DNA of 22,056 bases, taken from positions 1 through 22,056 of IMG/VR virus record IMGVR_UViG_3300020200_000208; one strand, given 5' to 3'. The translations under genes and the position numbers were made by a program. Below the pieces are notes generated by a model. The model searched no databases. It saw nothing but the letters and a program-made list of their open reading frames with translations, and had not been told where the DNA came from. The DNA is from a virus. Numbering within the stretch: position 1 is the first letter of the stretch; every line of letters begins with the position of its first letter. This document shows, piece after piece, positions 5,401 to 21,631 of the stretch.

Positions 5401-6425
5401 AAAACAACATAGCCCAATATGAGCATTTTAATAGATTTTTTGAATCATCAATAGATCAACATGCAAATGTGCAATACCAATTATCGGATTCAGACAACAT
5501 TATTGATGCAAGTTACAATGTTCAATTGCAAACAAATAAAGTTGTTGTAAAAATTAATGGCGTTGCTAATAATTTAATTAATAAACAAAGTCTTTGGAGA
5601 GCCGAAGATCCAACAACGCTTGGGGTTACACAATTATCAAGCGCAATGTCCAGCAATGATACATCTATAAATGTTTTATCAACGGATAACCCTTATTTTG
5701 CAAAATCTGGTTATCTTAAAATAAATAATGAAATTATTAAATACGGTAATACAACAAGCAATTCATTTTTAACCTTAGAGCGGGGCATGTTTGATACATC
5801 TATTGCTTCTCATAATGCCAATACTTTAGTTAGAGAAGTAAAAAATTATGATTTATTGTATGACAAGGCCCCGGCTTTCAAGATTGAAAACCCATTAATT
5901 ACAAATATGAGCACTGTTAATCCTCCAAAAATAGAATTGATCAAATATAATCCAACATCTTTTGGTGCTAAATTAATATTAGCCGCCTCCAATAACACAG
6001 TCAATGGAGATATTGTTTACATTGAAGGAGAAAATCCACTAACTGGGGAAAAGCATTTTGCTGGCATTGCTGGGATTCCAGTTGTTATAACTGATAAAAC
6101 CGGTGATGTTAAAGAACAAAAAGCAGTATTAGATGATAATATAAGAAAATATGGTCTTAAAGAAATAATAATAGAAAATGAATTTATTACTGATTTAACA
6201 CATGCTCAAAATTTAGCTAATTTTATTATTAATAAAATGTCAGATCCGGTTCCTATTATCAATTTAAATATATTGCCAATACCAAAATTACAACTTGGGG
6301 ATAGAATAAGGATCTCTTCTTTAAATTCTTTTGATATAATTAATGGTGATTATTGGGTTATTAGTACAGATTTTACATATGATTCAACTGTATCTCAATC
6401 ACTAGTAATAAGGAAGGTAGTTTAA
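2430..6425 (+). CDS. Large tail-tip/baseplate hub protein with discoidin-, PA14- and LamG-like domains
   Basis: At 1331 residues this is the largest gene in the window. The N-terminus (KPLIFIDWLDSRHI) and the C-terminal end (NILPIPKLQLGDRIRISS) look like phage tail-tip/hub proteins. Between them I see: a discoidin-like beta segment (~residues 100-260, with INKIVLTIYT); a small module at ~338-415 and again at ~1066-1133 with the tail motif pattern 'ERG.G/F.T...A..H.AN....'; a PA14-like domain (~585-695: GYYVPSATGDYQ, VYLNKILIIDEW, LTAGKAYELRIEFF); and a LamG/concanavalin-like jelly roll (~785-955: FTIQIFLKF, HLAVTYKNNVLQYYINGNL, FYIDEFVIHNKQFTSGEI). These domains generally bind glycans, so the protein probably contacts host surface polysaccharide while closing the tail tip. 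GAGG precedes the start. Confidence 0.75.
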   Translation: MLQYGLYNKQISTSFNNAISGIAQSVKPLIFIDWLDSRHIDKLSNTDIATSNYTNSKITENTVNLNVAGMLANGRTLSANEILMNRSRGADFYFTPNESINGVERQSFTWAVCDAKDINGDVITANGQWHCLPPTKEENYEFGYQSSVKSTNSLHATFSGYQFTTPVVLTYVFTERKVNIIKIITSEYNGQIKSYNIKAYNSTVNLVYDENGTIPENNYFFQHYLYNISTNDINKIVLTIYTTKNPLDYARINEVAPIYRLDMTDYVMNFGVSKVRDVHETSLPIAGSGSNTSSITFDNTGKEFNLFNSSSLFGKYMKKDLAVHVHAGWQIHYYSTQFVEAILSANVAANATVWTVNSVNDFPAGGSGNYYLLTIEPNSVNQEIVIASKGNNNSFNIIERGVGNTLARAHSANSIIKFDIYEYVPYGVFYIDEWQATSSSMNVAANLTDRSKFNNEKMLTKGFLLQDSTVAEAVEHLLLMTNFPKKDIKYLCPPSKSYKKNNAILHYGFDENSKDRANSQKIVSTSLRARFVQAPSSDLHSVFDIQLDANDRELTLYEKALDVKAYISPSLTTTTSAISSSNQLALDFVSGQFTDKNSVVVREYFNGVFDGYYVPSATGDYQILLAINKGGCRVYLNKILIIDEWRLVDSGSSSTVTFSSNEFALTAGKAYELRIEFFTQNYVAGEPFKISLGRTFNGSQGNIYANECYTMVANDKIGVKNDNTYLTFASNSWTPTADVNVIERSSRRNDAIYLGNVAISEPSGVVSDSSSKSILLSSNAYLRTPYHISYNIFDTASLLYTGEFTIQIFLKFHNGSFSNDGEYISNWSNANPSSGFEFFNSNSSNGFKFVSSSGIQTISSNTALSNSIYNHLAVTYKNNVLQYYINGNLSNTVTTSGTLVSFADKDLTFGGRGAGFSSGAEVAPAVKRSFYIDEFVIHNKQFTSGEIKNNYIETQMKEVRIMPFIYGNDSSIQAVIDNISLADLGRFYIDENNIAQYEHFNRFFESSIDQHANVQYQLSDSDNIIDASYNVQLQTNKVVVKINGVANNLINKQSLWRAEDPTTLGVTQLSSAMSSNDTSINVLSTDNPYFAKSGYLKINNEIIKYGNTTSNSFLTLERGMFDTSIASHNANTLVREVKNYDLLYDKAPAFKIENPLITNMSTVNPPKIELIKYNPTSFGAKLILAASNNTVNGDIVYIEGENPLTGEKHFAGIAGIPVVITDKTGDVKEQKAVLDDNIRKYGLKEIIIENEFITDLTHAQNLANFIINKMSDPVPIINLNILPIPKLQLGDRIRISSLNSFDIINGDYWVISTDFTYDSTVSQSLVIRKVV

Positions 6426-7687
6426 TGCCGTTTTCAAAAGGGACGTCTGAAAACACAATTTTATTCTTTCAGGGTGGCCATAATCATGATGGTGCATCAT
6501 CTTCTTTAATAGATATAAGTAAATATTCAATTTATGATTTTGTTGTTGGCAAAATAGGCAGCTCTCAGCGCCAAATAACGCAGCAAAGAAATTTTGATAA
6601 TCTTAAAACAGTAATATCTAATATTATAACAACAGATATTTTAGGACCAGCCGGAGTTCGTCTTGGTCCAAATTCAGTTCAATCTGTAAACATTGCTGCT
6701 GGCGCCGTAACCGCAGAGGAATTGGCAGCCAATATTGTATTGGTCAATAATATAATCCAAAGTAACAATTACGTTGCCAATACTTCTGGATGGGCTATTC
6801 ATGGCAATGGGTTTGCTGAGTTTGATATTGCTGTAATCAGAGGAACAATCACTGCTGATTCTATATTTATAAATACCACTAATTACTGGAATTCTAATGG
6901 AACATTTTCCGTTGGCGCTGGAGATAATAGGATGCTCTACAATGGCACAAATTTGGAATTAACAGGAAAAGTTACTGCAACTTCTGGTCAAATTGCTGGG
7001 TGGGCAATTTCTGGAGATAATCTTGTTACTGGCGGTAATTTTTCTGGCGACATGATATTGGGGAAATTTACAGGAAGTGGTAATGGTGGTGGTGTAGCGA
7101 TTGAGGGGCCAGCGGATGGAAACAATAATTTTGGAATTTCAAAACTTATTGGTGGTCAATTGCTTTTAACAACGTCTGTTGAAAATGGTCCTCATACAAC
7201 TTATGGATCTTCTGGGGTTATTTACAGATATGGCACTCAAACATTTGAATTTTACTATAATTCTAGCAGTGATCAGTTATGGGCCTATATAGATGGTCAA
7301 CCATATTGTATACAACAATGCTCGACTTCACCACCGCCCGTCAGCGTCTCACCAACACCATCGCCAGGACCTGAACCAGGACCTGAACCAGGACCTGGAC
7401 CTGGACCTGGACCAGGACCTGAACCAGGACCTGGACCTGGACCAGAACCAGGACCTGGACCTGATCCTTCCCCAACGCCATCGCCTTGCGCTTGCTGTGT
7501 GGGTCAGTTAGTCTTTGAACAACGTTGCTACAACAATGGTCTTCAATTAAGATCTGGGATTTATTATGACGGTTCTTGTGGTGCGGGTGAAGAGTCGGGT
7601 ACTGAATGTAGCGGACAATGTACTGGATGTAGTTGTCCATCGTTTACGCAATGGAATGACTGGACGGACACGGGCATCGGATGCTGA
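6425..7687 (+). CDS. Tail fibre with (Pro-X)n hinge and cysteine-rich C-terminal tip
   Basis: A 420-residue fibre-type protein. The N-terminal half carries phrases common in phage fibres (HNHDGASSSLIDISKYS, GAVTAEELAANIV, AVIRGTITADSI, GQIAGWAISGD). Residues ~302-354 are a low-complexity linker in which nearly every second residue is Pro (17 consecutive PG/PE/PD dipeptides, then PSPTPSP). Residues ~355-420 hold ten Cys in about 66 residues, beginning CACC and ending in a terminal GC, with clusters CSGQCTGCSC; this suggests a disulphide- or metal-stabilised knob. I infer an adhesin with a stiff extended stalk and a distal binding tip. AAGGAAGG lies upstream of the ATG, which sits on the previous stop. 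The cysteine-rich domain matches no family I know by name. Confidence 0.7.
   Translation: MPFSKGTSENTILFFQGGHNHDGASSSLIDISKYSIYDFVVGKIGSSQRQITQQRNFDNLKTVISNIITTDILGPAGVRLGPNSVQSVNIAAGAVTAEELAANIVLVNNIIQSNNYVANTSGWAIHGNGFAEFDIAVIRGTITADSIFINTTNYWNSNGTFSVGAGDNRMLYNGTNLELTGKVTATSGQIAGWAISGDNLVTGGNFSGDMILGKFTGSGNGGGVAIEGPADGNNNFGISKLIGGQLLLTTSVENGPHTTYGSSGVIYRYGTQTFEFYYNSSSDQLWAYIDGQPYCIQQCSTSPPPVSVSPTPSPGPEPGPEPGPGPGPGPGPEPGPGPGPEPGPGPDPSPTPSPCACCVGQLVFEQRCYNNGLQLRSGIYYDGSCGAGEESGTECSGQCTGCSCPSFTQWNDWTDTGIGC
7364..7465 (+). repeat. Hexanucleotide repeat encoding the Pro-X hinge
   Basis: Seventeen consecutive hexamers of form CC(A/T)GGA, CC(A/T)GAA or CCTGAT. Each encodes Pro-Gly, Pro-Glu or Pro-Asp. 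Gain or loss of any unit keeps the fibre in frame, so the linker length can change by strand slippage without breaking the protein. It is much richer in G+C than the surrounding sequence. Confidence 0.9.
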
Positions 7688-7728
7688 TAGAATAGAATAT
7701 AGAATATTGAGCAAAGACAGGAGAAAAT

Positions 7729-8115
7729 ATGTTACTTGAAATTCCAGAAAATCCAGATTTAAGACCAGTAAAGTTCTTTGCTGTGCTTGTAGACAATGAG
7801 TATACTGGAGTTATATCTTTTGTGGAATCAGAAGATTCATACATGATTAGGTTGATGGATGGATTAAATCAAAGTCCAAATATAAATCCAATTTCCCAAG
7901 AAGAAGGTTCTACACTAAATTCATATAAAATATATAATGTTTCAGTAAACGAAGAAAATTATGGGAAAATATTTTGGCCAGATATACAAAATGAACAAGC
8001 GGTAATAGCTGGTTTGGAATCAAATCCGACCATTATTCCGGTAACAAAAGAGCAAATAAGTGGAATTAGCATTGGGTGGGTGTGGAATGGCACTAATTTT
8101 GTAGCCCCGCAATGA
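7729..8115 (+). CDS. Small hypothetical phage protein (fibre-associated?)
   Basis: A 128-residue protein of unrecognised family. A strong Shine-Dalgarno (CAGGAG, 6 nt before ATG) marks the start after a 41-nt AT-rich gap. The C-terminus GISIGWVWNGTNFVAPQ resembles the terminal 'GW.WNGT.F..P' tail found on small proteins beside fibre genes in many marine and freshwater phages. A fibre accessory or assembly role is inference only. No catalytic motif, signal peptide or membrane segment is visible. The stop overlaps the next start (ATGA). Confidence 0.55.
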   Translation: MLLEIPENPDLRPVKFFAVLVDNEYTGVISFVESEDSYMIRLMDGLNQSPNINPISQEEGSTLNSYKIYNVSVNEENYGKIFWPDIQNEQAVIAGLESNPTIIPVTKEQISGISIGWVWNGTNFVAPQ

Positions 8116-8336
8116 ACGCTTGGCAAGAATATAAAAAAAAAATTGGGGATGCCGGACCTTGGAATTTGTTAAATCCCGCCAATTATACCAATGATGAGTT
8201 AGGCAAAAAAAGATATGAAATATGCCTCACCTGCCCAGAACTAATTGATCTAACAAAGCAATGCAGGCAATGCGGATGCTTTATGATTCTTAAAACTAAA
8301 CTTAAGACGGCAGTATGCCCATTAAAGAAATGGTAA
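8112..8336 (+). CDS. Small six-cysteine, probable zinc-binding protein
   Basis: A 74-residue protein with Cys at 38, 41, 51, 54, 56 and 69 (CLTC, CRQCGC, CP) and a C-terminal LKKW. The two CxxC pairs suggest a zinc ribbon or other metal cluster. The start overlaps the previous stop by 4 nt and has no evident Shine-Dalgarno, so it is probably translated by coupling. Its end overlaps the oxygenase gene downstream. Function unknown; the tight coupling suggests the two are made together. Confidence 0.6.
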   Translation: MNAWQEYKKKIGDAGPWNLLNPANYTNDELGKKRYEICLTCPELIDLTKQCRQCGCFMILKTKLKTAVCPLKKW

Positions 8337-8923
8337 AAGAAAACGAACTTGCTCCTGGAATTATTGTTTATTCCTATGATAATGATAAAGCAAGTGAATG
8401 GCTTTCAATACTAAAAACATATTCCGATCCGCTTCTTAAAATTGGCGAAGTTGTGCTCAAAAAAAATGATGGCTACTATTCAGCGCCAAGTTTAGACCAT
8501 AGACGATGCAAAACATTTTCAGGAAGTGCACTATTGGATTGTCATCCTGAAGACCCTCTAAGAATTTTGTCTGATGAAGTAAATAATTTTATGGATAAAA
8601 ATGTTGCAATGTTTTGTGATAAATATAGTGCCCATAAAGCAATAAAAAATCATGATGTAATATTTTTAAAATATGAAACAGGAGATTTTTTTAATAATCA
8701 TAACGATGATTGCCCAACATACCATAGAACCGTATCATCTATTACATATTTTAATGATGATTATGATGGTGGTGAATTGTGTTTTAGATATTTTAATATT
8801 GAATACAGACCAGAGCAGGGAGACTGCATCCTGTTCTCGTCAGCATTCCCGTATATGCATCGTGTTAAGAAAATTACCAAAGGCGCTAGGTATGCGGCTG
8901 TTAATTGGTATAGATATGTCTAA
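8315..8923 (+). CDS. 2-oxoglutarate/Fe(II) oxygenase, prolyl 4-hydroxylase type
   Basis: A 202-residue enzyme of the P4Hc double-stranded beta-helix family, which uses Fe(II), O2 and 2-oxoglutarate to hydroxylate protein side chains, classically proline. The iron triad is visible: H129-N-D131 (FFNNHNDD) and the distal H182 (MHRVKK). R192 in KGARYAA sits at the usual place of the 2-oxoglutarate carboxylate ligand. The segment YFNDDYDGGELCFRY and PEQGDCILFSS are typical family strands. Length matches stand-alone microbial P4H domains. The start may instead be ATG 8330, which overlaps the previous TAA; the Shine-Dalgarno is weak for both. The neighbouring fibre has a (Pro-X)n hinge, which is an attractive substrate. 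Other substrates cannot be excluded from sequence. Confidence 0.85.
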   Translation: MPIKEMVKENELAPGIIVYSYDNDKASEWLSILKTYSDPLLKIGEVVLKKNDGYYSAPSLDHRRCKTFSGSALLDCHPEDPLRILSDEVNNFMDKNVAMFCDKYSAHKAIKNHDVIFLKYETGDFFNNHNDDCPTYHRTVSSITYFNDDYDGGELCFRYFNIEYRPEQGDCILFSSAFPYMHRVKKITKGARYAAVNWYRYV

Positions 8924-8941: not shown

Positions 8942-9607
8942 ATGGCTTACGAAAATTATTCCTTTGTGTCATGGACGGACGGGACGCCGATTTCTTCAGA
9001 CAGAATGGCCCAAATGTCTATGAATATAGAACAGGTTAGAGATTTTAATGATTCCAAACCGGCTGGAGTTTTGCAATTTATTGAAGTAACTACGGCTAAT
9101 ATTGTTGCAAATGTGGGGAGTTCTTCAACATCAATGTTGGCTTTAACAAACCCAAGCGGTGGATCTGATCAGAGAATCACGCTTGGCGACAACCGTTATT
9201 ATAAAGTAACGATTGTTTTTCCAGGCTTTACAGTTTACACAAAAGGAGCAGAAGATGCTGTATTAACACTACAAGCATGGCAGGCAGTTTCTGACGGTTA
9301 TAATGCAACAAGTCCTCTGATGGAATGGAAATTTTCACCATCCCCTCATATTTTTTATAACACAGCATCCTCTGCCAACGTAGCTGCTTTTGGTATGACC
9401 TTTAAATCAGATCAAGGGAGGCTCGGCGCTGGAACATACAGTATTTATCTAGAAAGCGGTGGCGGTCTCAGTGCCGTATCGTTTTCTGCCGCGGTTAAGA
9501 GAACTTTTGGGACATCTGGTTCAACAAATGCTCCTCAAATATCTGTTAATCCAACCGCAACGGAAAGATTGCAACTTATAGTTGAAGATGTTGGAGCAAG
9601 TTTGTAA
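8942..9607 (+). CDS. Phage structural protein (minor tail/fibre-like)
   Basis: A 221-residue protein. The opening YSFVSWTDGTPISSDRMAQM follows the pattern 'Y.f..WtdGTpis..rm..m..n', seen at the N-terminus of phage minor tail or head-fibre proteins. The central part is Ser/Gly/Ala-rich with alternating hydrophobics, consistent with a beta-sandwich, and the end RLQLIVEDVGASL resembles 'L.VEDIG' endings of virion decoration proteins. I cannot say whether it sits on head or tail. It has a candidate leaderless promoter and precedes the HNH endonuclease, marking the end of the virion-gene block. Confidence 0.55.
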   Translation: MAYENYSFVSWTDGTPISSDRMAQMSMNIEQVRDFNDSKPAGVLQFIEVTTANIVANVGSSSTSMLALTNPSGGSDQRITLGDNRYYKVTIVFPGFTVYTKGAEDAVLTLQAWQAVSDGYNATSPLMEWKFSPSPHIFYNTASSANVAAFGMTFKSDQGRLGAGTYSIYLESGGGLSAVSFSAAVKRTFGTSGSTNAPQISVNPTATERLQLIVEDVGASL

Positions 9608-9612
9608 AAATA

Positions 9613-10026
9613 ATGAAAGAAGTATTGGCTTCAAAAAGAAAAGATGTAGAATGGACTGTTAGAAATACATCTGGTGAATACAATCCAAATTATAATGGCG
9701 GTAAATATATAGATGATAAGGGGTATGTAAGAATACTAGATCAAGATCATCCTTTTGGTATTAAAGGATATGTTTATGAACACAGAAGCGTATTTGAGAC
9801 TTATCTTAATCGACATTTACAGCCGTGGGAAACGGTGCATCATATTAATGAAATTAAAACAGACAACAGGGTACAAAATTTGTTCTTATGCACGGTACCA
9901 GAGCATAGCGCAATTCATCGTGAAGGTAAAAAACCAACTGACAGTCATCGCAAAAAAATGCGAGAAAATATGCATAAACGCAATAAAGAAACAAGAGAAA
10001 ATAGGCAAAAAAGTTTTAAAAAATAA
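9613..10026 (+). CDS. HNH endonuclease (free-standing, homing type)
   Basis: A 137-residue nuclease. The core VHHINEIKTDNRVQNL (H76-H77, N79, then N85 and N89) and the downstream EHSAIHRE give the HNH_3-type motif that binds a metal and cuts DNA. YEHRSVFETYLNRHL before it is the usual helix preceding the motif. The C-terminal ~40 residues are highly basic (KKMRENMHKRNKETRENRQKSFKK) and may bind DNA. No Shine-Dalgarno is evident. Such genes are often mobile inserts in phage genomes, and its place between virion and replication modules fits. A role in DNA packaging or host takeover is a less likely alternative. Confidence 0.85.
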   Translation: MKEVLASKRKDVEWTVRNTSGEYNPNYNGGKYIDDKGYVRILDQDHPFGIKGYVYEHRSVFETYLNRHLQPWETVHHINEIKTDNRVQNLFLCTVPEHSAIHREGKKPTDSHRKKMRENMHKRNKETRENRQKSFKK

Positions 10027-19483: not shown

Positions 19484-20548
19484 ATGCTTGTATGGTCTGA
19501 TAATCAAACCCAAAAATTTAGCGAAGGCTATGGCTACGCACCAGATTGCCTATGGGAACATATCGGTTCAAGCGGTCTACCAATTAGACGACATAAGCCA
19601 TCTTTGCCAGAAGAAATTGGTCGGCTTCAAGCCAATATTCTAGGTCTGGGATATTTTGATAAGGGGTGTGTTGCTGATGAAATAGTCATTAACTTTTCTA
19701 TACCAGAGATGTTTGTTAAATCTAATTTATACTCAATTGGTTACACTTTCTGGGAGACAAATAAATTGCCAGAAGATTGGGTTGTTGAATGCAATGAGAT
19801 GGATGAAATCTGGACAGCTACTCAAGTTATGAAAGATGTTTTTGTCAATTCTGGTATTATTAAACCGGTTTATGAATTTAAACTAGGTGTTGATCCAAAA
19901 ATATATTTTCCCAAAAAGAGAACTCCGCACAATCAATTTACTTTTCTTTCTGTTGGTTCACCTTCAACTCGCAAGAACTCTCAGTTATCCTTAAATGCGT
20001 TTTTAAAAGTGTTTGGGGGAAATTATGATTACAGGCTGCTTTATAAATCAAACGGTCCCCCAGATGCCAGAATTTGGACTGGCGACATGATAGGACCGGT
20101 TCAACATCCACAAATTGAAGTAATTGATTACGATGTATCTCACGAAGAATTAGGGGCGATTTATGATAAAGCAGATTGCTTGCTGTACCCCACAAGCGGT
20201 GAGGGTTGGGGGTTAATTCCGTTTCAAGCAATTGCTAAAGGTATTCCTACAATTTGTACAAATGCTTTGGCGTGTTTTGAGTTTGCTCATATGTCTATAC
20301 CTCTTGATTTTACATGGGGAACCAAAAACATGACTGGGATATATGAAAATGCTGGTAAATGGGCTGAGCCAAACTTTGACGATTTATGCGACAAAATGCT
20401 ATATGTAGCAAATAATTATGAAGAAGTCTCTGATAAAACATATCAAAGCGCTGAATATATTAATCAAAATATGACATGGGAAAAGGTTTCTCAAAAATAT
20501 ATTGCTAGATGTTGGGAGGTTTTAAAGAATGTACAAAGATATAGTTGA
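19484..20548 (+). CDS. GT4-like glycosyltransferase
   Basis: A 354-residue protein with GT-B glycosyltransferase features: the mid-chain FLSVGSPSTRKN after a linker (family-4 hinge 'f..vg....rKn'), then ADCLLYPTSGEGWGLIPFQAIAKGIPTI, the nucleotide-sugar-binding helix. The EX7E motif here reads E240...Q248, so the second Glu is Gln. The donor and acceptor are not visible. Possible targets are virion proteins, phage DNA bases or host glycans. It heads a three-gene cassette with two methyltransferase-like proteins, inserted between polymerase and recombinase genes. It has no Shine-Dalgarno; the next gene begins inside its 3' end. Confidence 0.8.
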   Translation: MLVWSDNQTQKFSEGYGYAPDCLWEHIGSSGLPIRRHKPSLPEEIGRLQANILGLGYFDKGCVADEIVINFSIPEMFVKSNLYSIGYTFWETNKLPEDWVVECNEMDEIWTATQVMKDVFVNSGIIKPVYEFKLGVDPKIYFPKKRTPHNQFTFLSVGSPSTRKNSQLSLNAFLKVFGGNYDYRLLYKSNGPPDARIWTGDMIGPVQHPQIEVIDYDVSHEELGAIYDKADCLLYPTSGEGWGLIPFQAIAKGIPTICTNALACFEFAHMSIPLDFTWGTKNMTGIYENAGKWAEPNFDDLCDKMLYVANNYEEVSDKTYQSAEYINQNMTWEKVSQKYIARCWEVLKNVQRYS

Positions 20549-21125
20549 GACATCACAATGGTCAGAATCTCACGGTGCAAATAATGATTTTGCTGGGCTT
20601 GGTGCAATCTATTATGCACTCCCATACTCATTAAAGGCAGATATATGTGTTTGTTTAGGATCTGGGGCTGGTTTTGTACCAAAACTGATGCATTATGCAC
20701 AAGAGGTATTAATAAGAGAAGAAATAATTAATAAAATAGATGTATCGCTTGTTGATGCAGATATCGGTATTTGGGGCAGACCGGTATATCAAAATGTAAT
20801 AGATGGTTACGAAGGAATTAAGATATACAAACAATTAACCGATTCCGCTTTTGAAAATTTTAATAATATTGCATATCTACATGTTGATGCAGATCATACA
20901 TATGAGCAAGTATATAAGGACTTATGTAATTATGGAAGTAGAATGAGAAAAGAAAATTGGGCAATTACTGTTCATGATACAAACAATATACCTGCTAAGC
21001 TTGGTAATCTTGGAATTGGTTGTTATCAAGCCGCAACACAGTGGGCTGAAGAAAATAATTACGGGTTTGTCAATTTTACAGTTGGGTGTGGAACGGCATT
21101 AATTATGCCAAGGGCTGGAATTTAA
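20529..21125 (+). CDS. Class I methyltransferase-like protein (Methyltransf_24/CmcI type)
   Basis: A 198-residue Rossmann-fold protein. SAM motif I is VCLGSGAGFVP (G44-x-G46-x-G48), followed by VSLVDADIG (strand beta2 acid). H118-V-D120-A-D122-H123 (YLHVDADHTYEQ) and H149-D150 (TVHDT) form the metal-site pattern of the CmcI/Methyltransf_24 group, which includes sugar O-methyltransferases. This fits methylation of a sugar added by the upstream glycosyltransferase, but the target is inference. A GGAGG Shine-Dalgarno sits in the end of the previous gene, 9-10 nt before ATG. Confidence 0.7.
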   Translation: MYKDIVETSQWSESHGANNDFAGLGAIYYALPYSLKADICVCLGSGAGFVPKLMHYAQEVLIREEIINKIDVSLVDADIGIWGRPVYQNVIDGYEGIKIYKQLTDSAFENFNNIAYLHVDADHTYEQVYKDLCNYGSRMRKENWAITVHDTNNIPAKLGNLGIGCYQAATQWAEENNYGFVNFTVGCGTALIMPRAGI

Positions 21126-21631
21126 TGGATAGGTGGGAGTATCTCTATACAAAATCGTATTCAATTAGACATCATGTTGCTGAATATTATCTTGATGATA
21201 TTGATGTTGTTGTTGATATAGGAACATACAAAAGAAAGATAAAAACGGATAAAGTATTATATTGTATTGATCCGTTAAAAACATTTGAAGATACCTTTCA
21301 CGGAAGTGTCGCAGACTGGTATTCAATGTATTCAAATGAATTACATGGTAAAAGAATTGCAACAATAATTTTAGGTCTTCACATTGAAGGCGAGGAGAAA
21401 GAATTTGATTGCGTAGTTGATTTAATAAAAAAATCTTCTATTATTGTAATAGAATTTCCGAAACAACACACGCCTTCGCAACACCAGTTTGATACAATAT
21501 TGTCAAGAACTGGATTTATTGTGGAAAACGAAATTAATTTTAAAATGCCAATTGTTGAAACACCTGGTCATCCACCATTTCGAGATAGAACACTTTACAC
21601 ATTAAAGGAGAAAAATGTTAATAGTAGATAA
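21125..21631 (+). CDS. Rossmann-like, possible methyltransferase
   Basis: About 168 residues from ATG 21125, which overlaps the previous TAA and has AAGGG upstream. An ATG at 21086 in the same frame lies inside the preceding gene and lacks a better site, so the shorter form is preferred. VVVDIGTYKRK (residues 28-38) resembles SAM motif I with only one Gly; VLYCIDPL follows as a beta2 strand, then IATIILGLHIEG, IIVIEFPKQH and the fibre-like FDTILSRTGFIV helix-strand end typical of FkbM-like proteins. The degenerate motif leaves activity uncertain. It probably works with the two upstream genes. Confidence 0.5.
   Translation: MDRWEYLYTKSYSIRHHVAEYYLDDIDVVVDIGTYKRKIKTDKVLYCIDPLKTFEDTFHGSVADWYSMYSNELHGKRIATIILGLHIEGEEKEFDCVVDLIKKSSIIVIEFPKQHTPSQHQFDTILSRTGFIVENEINFKMPIVETPGHPPFRDRTLYTLKEKNVNSR

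Follow-up and report, generated by a model that had tools for sequence, protein, structure and literature searches.

Does a phage hydroxylate the stalk of its own tail fibre? This question is raised by IMG/VR record IMGVR_UViG_3300020200_000208, a freshwater-type phage sequence of 22,056 bp that was analysed as a whole (hereafter the window). In the window, a fibre gene with a Pro-rich linker is followed by a gene for a 2-oxoglutarate/Fe(II) (2OG-Fe(II)) oxygenase resembling prolyl 4-hydroxylases (P4Hs). Comparison with related viral loci, designated by L numbers, supports the hydroxylation of a phage's own fibre stalk as a class. The larger finding is an exchangeable linker-plus-modifier cassette, in which the gene after DUF6171 occupies a variable slot. 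The features concerned are:

6425..7687, + strand: tail-fibre-like protein of 420 amino acids (aa), with a J/tail-tip-like middle, a Pro-rich linker and a Cys-rich C-terminus
7330..7487, + strand: fibre linker, TSPPPVSVSPTPSP-(P[GED])17-SPTPSP
7480..7687, + strand: Cys-rich C-terminal fibre module, kept in the sister locus L017 (90%)
7729..8115, + strand: small open reading frame (ORF), 128 aa, PHROG 14370 (0.0033)
8112..8336, + strand: DUF6171 zinc-ribbon-like protein, 74 aa, Pfam PF19668 (1.9e-8) and PHROG 13558 (5.8e-16), with invariant Cys
8315..8923, + strand: P4H-like 2OG-Fe(II) oxygenase, 202 aa, the slot gene, with a possible start at 8330
8942..9607, + strand: structural-like protein, the downstream border of the exchangeable slot in the window's fibre lineage

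The oxygenase ORF matches 2OG-FeII_Oxy_3 of Pfam (PF13640, 2.4e-14, 54.5 bits against a curated cutoff of 27) and the 2OG-Fe(II) oxygenases of PHROG. The HxD...H iron triad H129, D131 and H182 is invariant in 49 of 49 diverse relatives, and the 2OG-binding position 192 is Arg in 43 and Lys in 6 of them. In a PDB profile search, the best match was the Bacillus anthracis P4H (1.3e-11), and the P4H of the virus PBCV-1 (2.7e-6), P3H1 (3.6e-6), another P4H, PHD2 and PKHD hydroxylases were also matched. The AlphaFold (AF2) model, built on the alignment of 49 sequences, has a predicted local distance difference test score (pLDDT) of 94.9, and its double-stranded β-helix fold resembles that of prolyl hydroxylases. 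The top Foldseek matches are Chlamydomonas P4H (including the (Ser-Pro)5 complex 3gze), PHD2, Dictyostelium PHD, Pseudomonas putida PHD and viral vCPH, with an E value of 4e-10 to the Chlamydomonas enzyme and template modelling (TM) scores of at most 0.73 to PHD2. AlkB/TET-type proteins are only marginal among the sequence and fold matches. By sequence and predicted fold, the oxygenase is a prolyl-hydroxylase-type enzyme, for which the corresponding activity is predicted.

The fibre stop and the oxygenase start are 628 bp apart, and this gap contains ORFs 7729-8115 and 8112-8336. The three downstream ORFs overlap by 4 bp and then by 22 bp, the second overlap being 7 bp if the oxygenase starts at Met6 (8330), which is the start in relatives. 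The family matches of the fibre ORF are weak, namely Phage_Tail_Tip in Pfam (PF09327, 2.5e-4, just under the cutoff) and central tail fibre J in PHROG (PHROG 31, 2.4e-5). The assignment is nonetheless supported by its position 3' of the tape-measure and tail genes and by its relatives, which are 47-100% identical. The linker has 17 straight P[G/E/D] dipeptides with SPTPSP on either side and STSPPPVSV before them. The DNA of the dipeptide run is a 12/36-bp tandem array (7364-7463) with a Tandem Repeats Finder score of at most 169, far above chance. A sequence-only reading of this DNA had pointed to the 17 Pro-Gly/Glu/Asp dipeptides and, about 0.6 kb past the fibre, to an intact P4Hc oxygenase with H129-x-D131, H182 and R192, of a family acting on peptidyl proline; the count is exact, the residues and the spacing agree, and the closest structures by profile and Foldseek are indeed prolyl hydroxylases. 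A collagen-like phage fibre with Gly-X-Y triplets was rejected for the array because its period is two (Pro-X), not three.

The cassette was mapped from viral relatives of the oxygenase, the fibre and DUF6171. The order recurring in these relatives is a fibre with a low-complexity linker, a small ORF, DUF6171 and an exchangeable slot gene, with DUF6171 as the constant member. The order with the oxygenase in the slot is found with differing fibres and linkers, which are (SPV)n in L002, (TP)n in L060 and L095, and (VTPP)n in L089. The C-terminal module 'SNPTIIPV...GWVWNGTNFVAP' of the small ORF 7729-8115 recurs 5' of DUF6171 in relatives, and on the other side of the slot the 8942..9607 product has 40-92% identity among relatives whose slot genes differ. 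Across loci, the slot contains a P4H-like enzyme, a second 2OG family, a glycosyltransferase of family GT60, a GT11-like transferase (weak match), an APS kinase, or structural genes only. GT60 (PF11397) is matched by the sibling slot genes of L017 (5e-29), L023 (3.5e-33) and L060 (1.9e-36); a search by sequence for a PDB relative of these found none. The second 2OG family has no significant Pfam match, while its model (pLDDT 94.7) has a 2OG-oxygenase fold and an HxD...H pattern. Three kinds of gene from other loci are located as follows:

L149:4190-4951, L142:4912-5493 and L360:4435-5010 (- strand): second 2OG family, beside Pro-rich fibres, with H95xD97...H141xR143 and 'EPDHW'
L136:1165-1923: slot gene behind a (PPVV)n fibre, encoding an APS kinase/nucleotidyltransferase-like protein
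L354:1752-2687, - strand: radical SAM/SPASM protein between P4H and GT60, possibly peptide-modifying

The APS kinase in the slot of L136 suggests sulfation as another decoration. The operons of L095 and L339 have a (TP)n fibre, DUF6171, P4H, a GDP-mannose-dehydratase-like epimerase and a GT11-like transferase, and that of L360 has a second 2OG gene in addition. In L354, the (TP)n fibre and DUF6171 are accompanied by P4H, the radical SAM/SPASM protein, GT60 and an epimerase; in L134, a (VTPP)n fibre and DUF6171 by GT60, a carbamoyltransferase and P4H; and in L060, P4H is followed by GT60. Hence, the sibling operons hold the parts list expected of hydroxylation followed by sugar addition. As separate observations, the viral DNA of L006-L016 (e.g. 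L006:708-8982) encodes tandem arrays of as many as eight 2OG-oxygenase domains within 9 kb, and an HNH endonuclease gene (window 9613-10026) that adjoins the fibre region is kept in relatives. The endonuclease may promote exchanges at the slot.

Natural variants of the window's fibre lineage relate the linker to the enzyme. A shared fibre N-terminus is combined with P4H and X-Pro linkers in the window, L003, L004, L005 and L024, and with GT60 and Thr-rich linkers in L021 and L023. In L028, a sibling without either enzyme, this N-terminus is joined to an S74 chaperone end and the linker is missing. A [S/A/T/G]-Pro motif lies near the linker start in 12 of the 13 P4H-slot loci of one fibre lineage, and three of its four GT60-slot linkers are Thr-rich and Pro-poor. 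It is this motif, rather than the Pro-Gly/Glu array, that stays with P4H. The sister L017 is nearly identical to the window through the fibre, its linker having 16 dipeptides instead of 17, and a GT60 (PF11397, L017:7604-8566) takes the oxygenase's place between DUF6171 and the structural gene that follows.

The covariation of linker and slot extends over the loci compared: P4H goes with linkers of the Ser/Ala/Thr/Val-Pro kind, the linkers at GT60 loci are mostly Thr-rich, and enzyme-less loci are linker-less. Among DUF6171-anchored loci grouped into 90% clusters, at least 8 Pro within 30 aa were present in 33 of 38 clusters with a 2OG gene and in 5 of 16 without (p=1.1e-4). In a second survey, loci were picked by linker DNA alone, and genes were sought within 5 kb downstream with profiles built for this analysis. 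Three of its four scans are samples, and the counts therefore apply among the matches listed. A 2OG gene was present downstream of 31 of 63 (PPVT)n arrays and 4 of 58 (TP)n arrays, the latter having GT60 or a GT11-like gene nearby in 8 of 58 cases. After clustering by downstream DNA, 2OG remained at 7/30 (PPVT)n versus 0/57 Pro-[GED] arrays (p=3.5e-4), and any enzyme at 9/52 (TP)n versus 0/57 Pro-[GED] arrays (p=8.6e-4).

Neither 2OG nor GT60 was found downstream of independent Pro-[GED] arrays (0/59), and this array is ruled out as the enzyme's general partner. Thr-run loci had no downstream 2OG gene (0/23), and the Thr-run pattern is likewise ruled out as a marker of GT60 or GT11, as 0/23 loci (5 clusters) had these enzymes. 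The link between Thr-rich linkers and GT60 is thus drawn from the DUF6171-anchored and within-lineage loci only. The co-occurrence survey proposed in the sequence-only reading came out in favour of the class, Pro-rich linkers with 2OG, and not of the Pro-[GED] arrays. Its idea that the phage modifies its own adhesin stalk stands to the extent that the fibre linker is probably the substrate, as indicated by the linker-enzyme covariation, and fails for the Pro-Gly/Glu/Asp hinge as the tracked feature (0/59, L017 and L004/L005).

We propose that the window carries a modular cassette for fibre decoration, in one of several versions. Its 2OG-Fe(II) oxygenase would hydroxylate prolines in the low-complexity linker of the fibre encoded just upstream, which the sequence comparisons make fairly probable. 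The likeliest sites would be Ser/Thr/Val-Pro and Pro-Pro, here SPPPVSVSPTPSP and DPSPTPSP, and possibly also the Pro-Gly/Glu array. The flanks SPPPV/SPTPSP of the window's linker are the candidate substrate with the conserved alphabet, and the central array appears atypical. By inspection, GPGPE and SPTPS of the linker fit the P4H motif [AVSTG]-P-[AVSTG]-[GAVPSTC]-[APSDE], which is derived from plants and may not apply to the phage enzyme (PMC7960765). On comparative evidence, hydroxylation is more likely at the conserved Ser-Pro-Pro/Thr-Pro flanks than in the Pro-Gly/Glu array, which is an unlikely substrate because such arrays generally occur without the enzyme, L017 has GT60 and the enzyme persists with (GGV)n. 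In sibling phages, the slot or operon would supply GT60, GT11-like glycosyltransferases and sugar-nucleotide enzymes that may place sugars onto Thr/Ser or hydroxyproline. Recombination at the fibre end would exchange linker and enzyme, and the resulting stalk would be extended, hydroxylated or glycosylated, and similar to mucins or extensins. The sequence-only reading suggested that the modification may stiffen the stalk, shield it from proteases or create hydroxyproline sites for sugar. Glycosylation is the most likely purpose, since GT60, GT11-like and GDP-mannose-dehydratase-like genes are present in sibling operons. More tentatively, prolyl hydroxylase, GT60/GT11-like and sugar-nucleotide enzymes may together form a full extensin-/mucin-like phage system that modifies hypervariable Pro/Thr fibre linkers, with linker and enzyme swapped as a matched pair and the fibre surface changed thereby.

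Several observations weigh against this proposal. With DUF6171 clusters formed at 80% single linkage, few negatives are left and p rises to 0.085, and one lineage supplies many of the (PPVT)n loci. Besides the 0/59 for independent Pro-[GED] arrays, the oxygenase was not detectable on the 9,967-bp contig of L017, though its fibre is the same as the window's. L004 and L005 retain the oxygenase though (GGV)n now makes up most of their linker, whose edges alone keep SPPPV/SPPAV and EPPPPSG/EPPAG; similarly, L133 has the oxygenase despite few X-Pro sites. DUF6171 is located beside fibres without a 2OG gene in some cyanophages. The viral P4H is present in PBCV-1 virions, in which hydroxyproline was not detected (PMC7019647). 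The oxygenase may instead be cargo in a recombination hot spot by the fibre, acting on an unrelated host or phage protein (e.g. EF-Tu or a ribosomal protein, like bacterial PHD), and its adjacency to Pro-rich linkers would then be hitch-hiking in a few phage lineages. This is compatible with the EF-Tu-bound P. putida PHD being among the best fold matches, with the enzyme swap in L017 next to an unchanged fibre, and with the weakening of part of the statistics after lineage clustering. However, the slot mostly holds protein- or sugar-modifying enzymes (both 2OG families, GT60, GT11-like, APS kinase) or structural genes, and the linker alphabet tracks the enzyme both within one fibre lineage and in the linker-only scan. 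We consider the cargo explanation unlikely.

It is quite improbable that the linker is an unmodified polyproline-II spacer, like TonB-like Pro-Glu/Pro-Lys arms, with the enzyme serving DNA repair or nucleic-acid oxidation. The closest sequence and fold matches are prolyl and PKHD hydroxylases, AlkB/TET-type ones being marginal; the gene is located in the tail operon, away from repair genes; and the linker-enzyme association would be left without explanation, even though viral proteins with no 2OG neighbour commonly have Pro-[GED] arrays (among the matches listed) and DNA repair has been proposed for cyanophage 2OG genes (PMC9146016). The target could also be the DUF6171 protein or the small 7729-8115 protein instead of the fibre, given that DUF6171 is always adjacent, has invariant Pro residues (PW, CP and CPL motifs) and overlaps with its neighbours at the gene level. 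These residues are independent of the oxygenase because they are kept where the slot holds GT60 (L017, L021 and L023), while the linker covariation favours the fibre, and we regard this target as very improbable.

Along the window, the fibre (6425-7687) is preceded by the end of the tape measure, tail proteins and a 1331-aa PA14/laminin-G tail protein. ORF 7729-8115, DUF6171 (8112-8336) and the oxygenase (8315-8923) lie 3' of the fibre, and a replication module comes after them. DnaE of the replication module has its nearest relatives in Streptomyces phages (37%). Two tail proteins, 1190-1585 and 1587-2429, have ca. 35% mutual identity over ca. 130 aa, a duplication. Inside the replication module, 19484-21631 encodes a family 4 glycosyltransferase, a Methyltransf_24/RMNT_CmcI-like protein and another ORF in a row, whose products could act on virion glycans.

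Phage 2OG oxygenase and P4H genes are widespread; those for P4HA have been termed cryptic (PMC9301287), and a DNA-repair role is often given to 2OG genes (PMC9146016). With its matching linker and enzyme, the cassette offers a concrete and cheap way to test a substrate. If the proposal holds, hydroxyproline-rich, probably glycosylated adhesins would extend beyond eukaryotes and the viruses that infect them, and phage host recognition and fibre durability would include post-translational decoration as a variable layer. In agreement with the sequence-only reading, which knew of no such case, no account of prolyl hydroxylation in the maturation of a phage fibre turned up in searches of the open-licence literature. 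The full cassette was also sought in cultured phages, and the cyanophages Sf-FS3, S-T4, S-H9-1, S-SCSM2R and S-IOM18 carry 2OG and/or DUF6171 without an adjoining Pro array. As an observation in its own right, Synechococcus phage Sf-FS3 (PV340856.1, 183681-188926) has genes for a DUF6171-like protein, P4H, 2OG oxygenase, epimerases, a glycosyltransferase and a sugar O-methyltransferase in a row, with no adjoining Pro array. Bacterial genomes gave one distant DUF6171 only (L607), without 2OG or glycosyltransferase, and hence no prophage host was found.

The cyanophage 2OG-Fe(II) oxygenases (PHROG 61 and relatives) belong to the same superfamily as the window enzyme, and S-H9-1 has two of them beside short tail-fibre genes, but their identity to it is ca. 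20-40% and they are usually assigned to DNA repair or given no function. In mycobacteriophages, phage-encoded glycosyltransferases modify virion proteins; to our knowledge, this involves neither a hydroxylase step nor a covarying Pro/Thr linker cassette. We also know of no fibre/linker cassette adjoining the vCPH gene of PBCV-1, which, unlike the window phage, is a eukaryotic algal virus. Its vCPH (PDB 5c5t) is, like the window enzyme, a small single-domain viral P4H-type enzyme, with both a profile (2.7e-6) and a fold match, and acts on Pro-containing peptides (PMC7019647). The protist Skp1 pathway, with P4H, a GT60 GlcNAc-transferase and further glycosyltransferases including a fucosyltransferase, resembles the phage loci in that P4H and GT60 share an operon or alternate in the slot, and differs in its substrate and in using a GT74 fucosyltransferase rather than a GT11-like enzyme. 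Protist GT60 enzymes add sugar to mucin-domain Thr/Ser and, within the Skp1 pathway, to hydroxyproline (PMC8724618). The best fold match of the phage oxygenase leads to Chlamydomonas P4H-1, the plant P4Hs and the hydroxyproline-rich glycoproteins (extensins and arabinogalactan proteins). Plant and algal P4Hs accept AP, SP, TP, VP and GP contexts, and the phage linker alphabets (SP, TP, VP, AP and SPPP) resemble their substrates (PMC7960765). The plant and algal system uses arabinosyl and galactosyl transferases, whereas in the phage cassettes, where both the enzymes and the candidate substrate are phage-encoded, putative sugars would be added via GT60/GT11-like enzymes. By this analogy, phages probably decorate their own fibres as plants do their cell-wall proteins.

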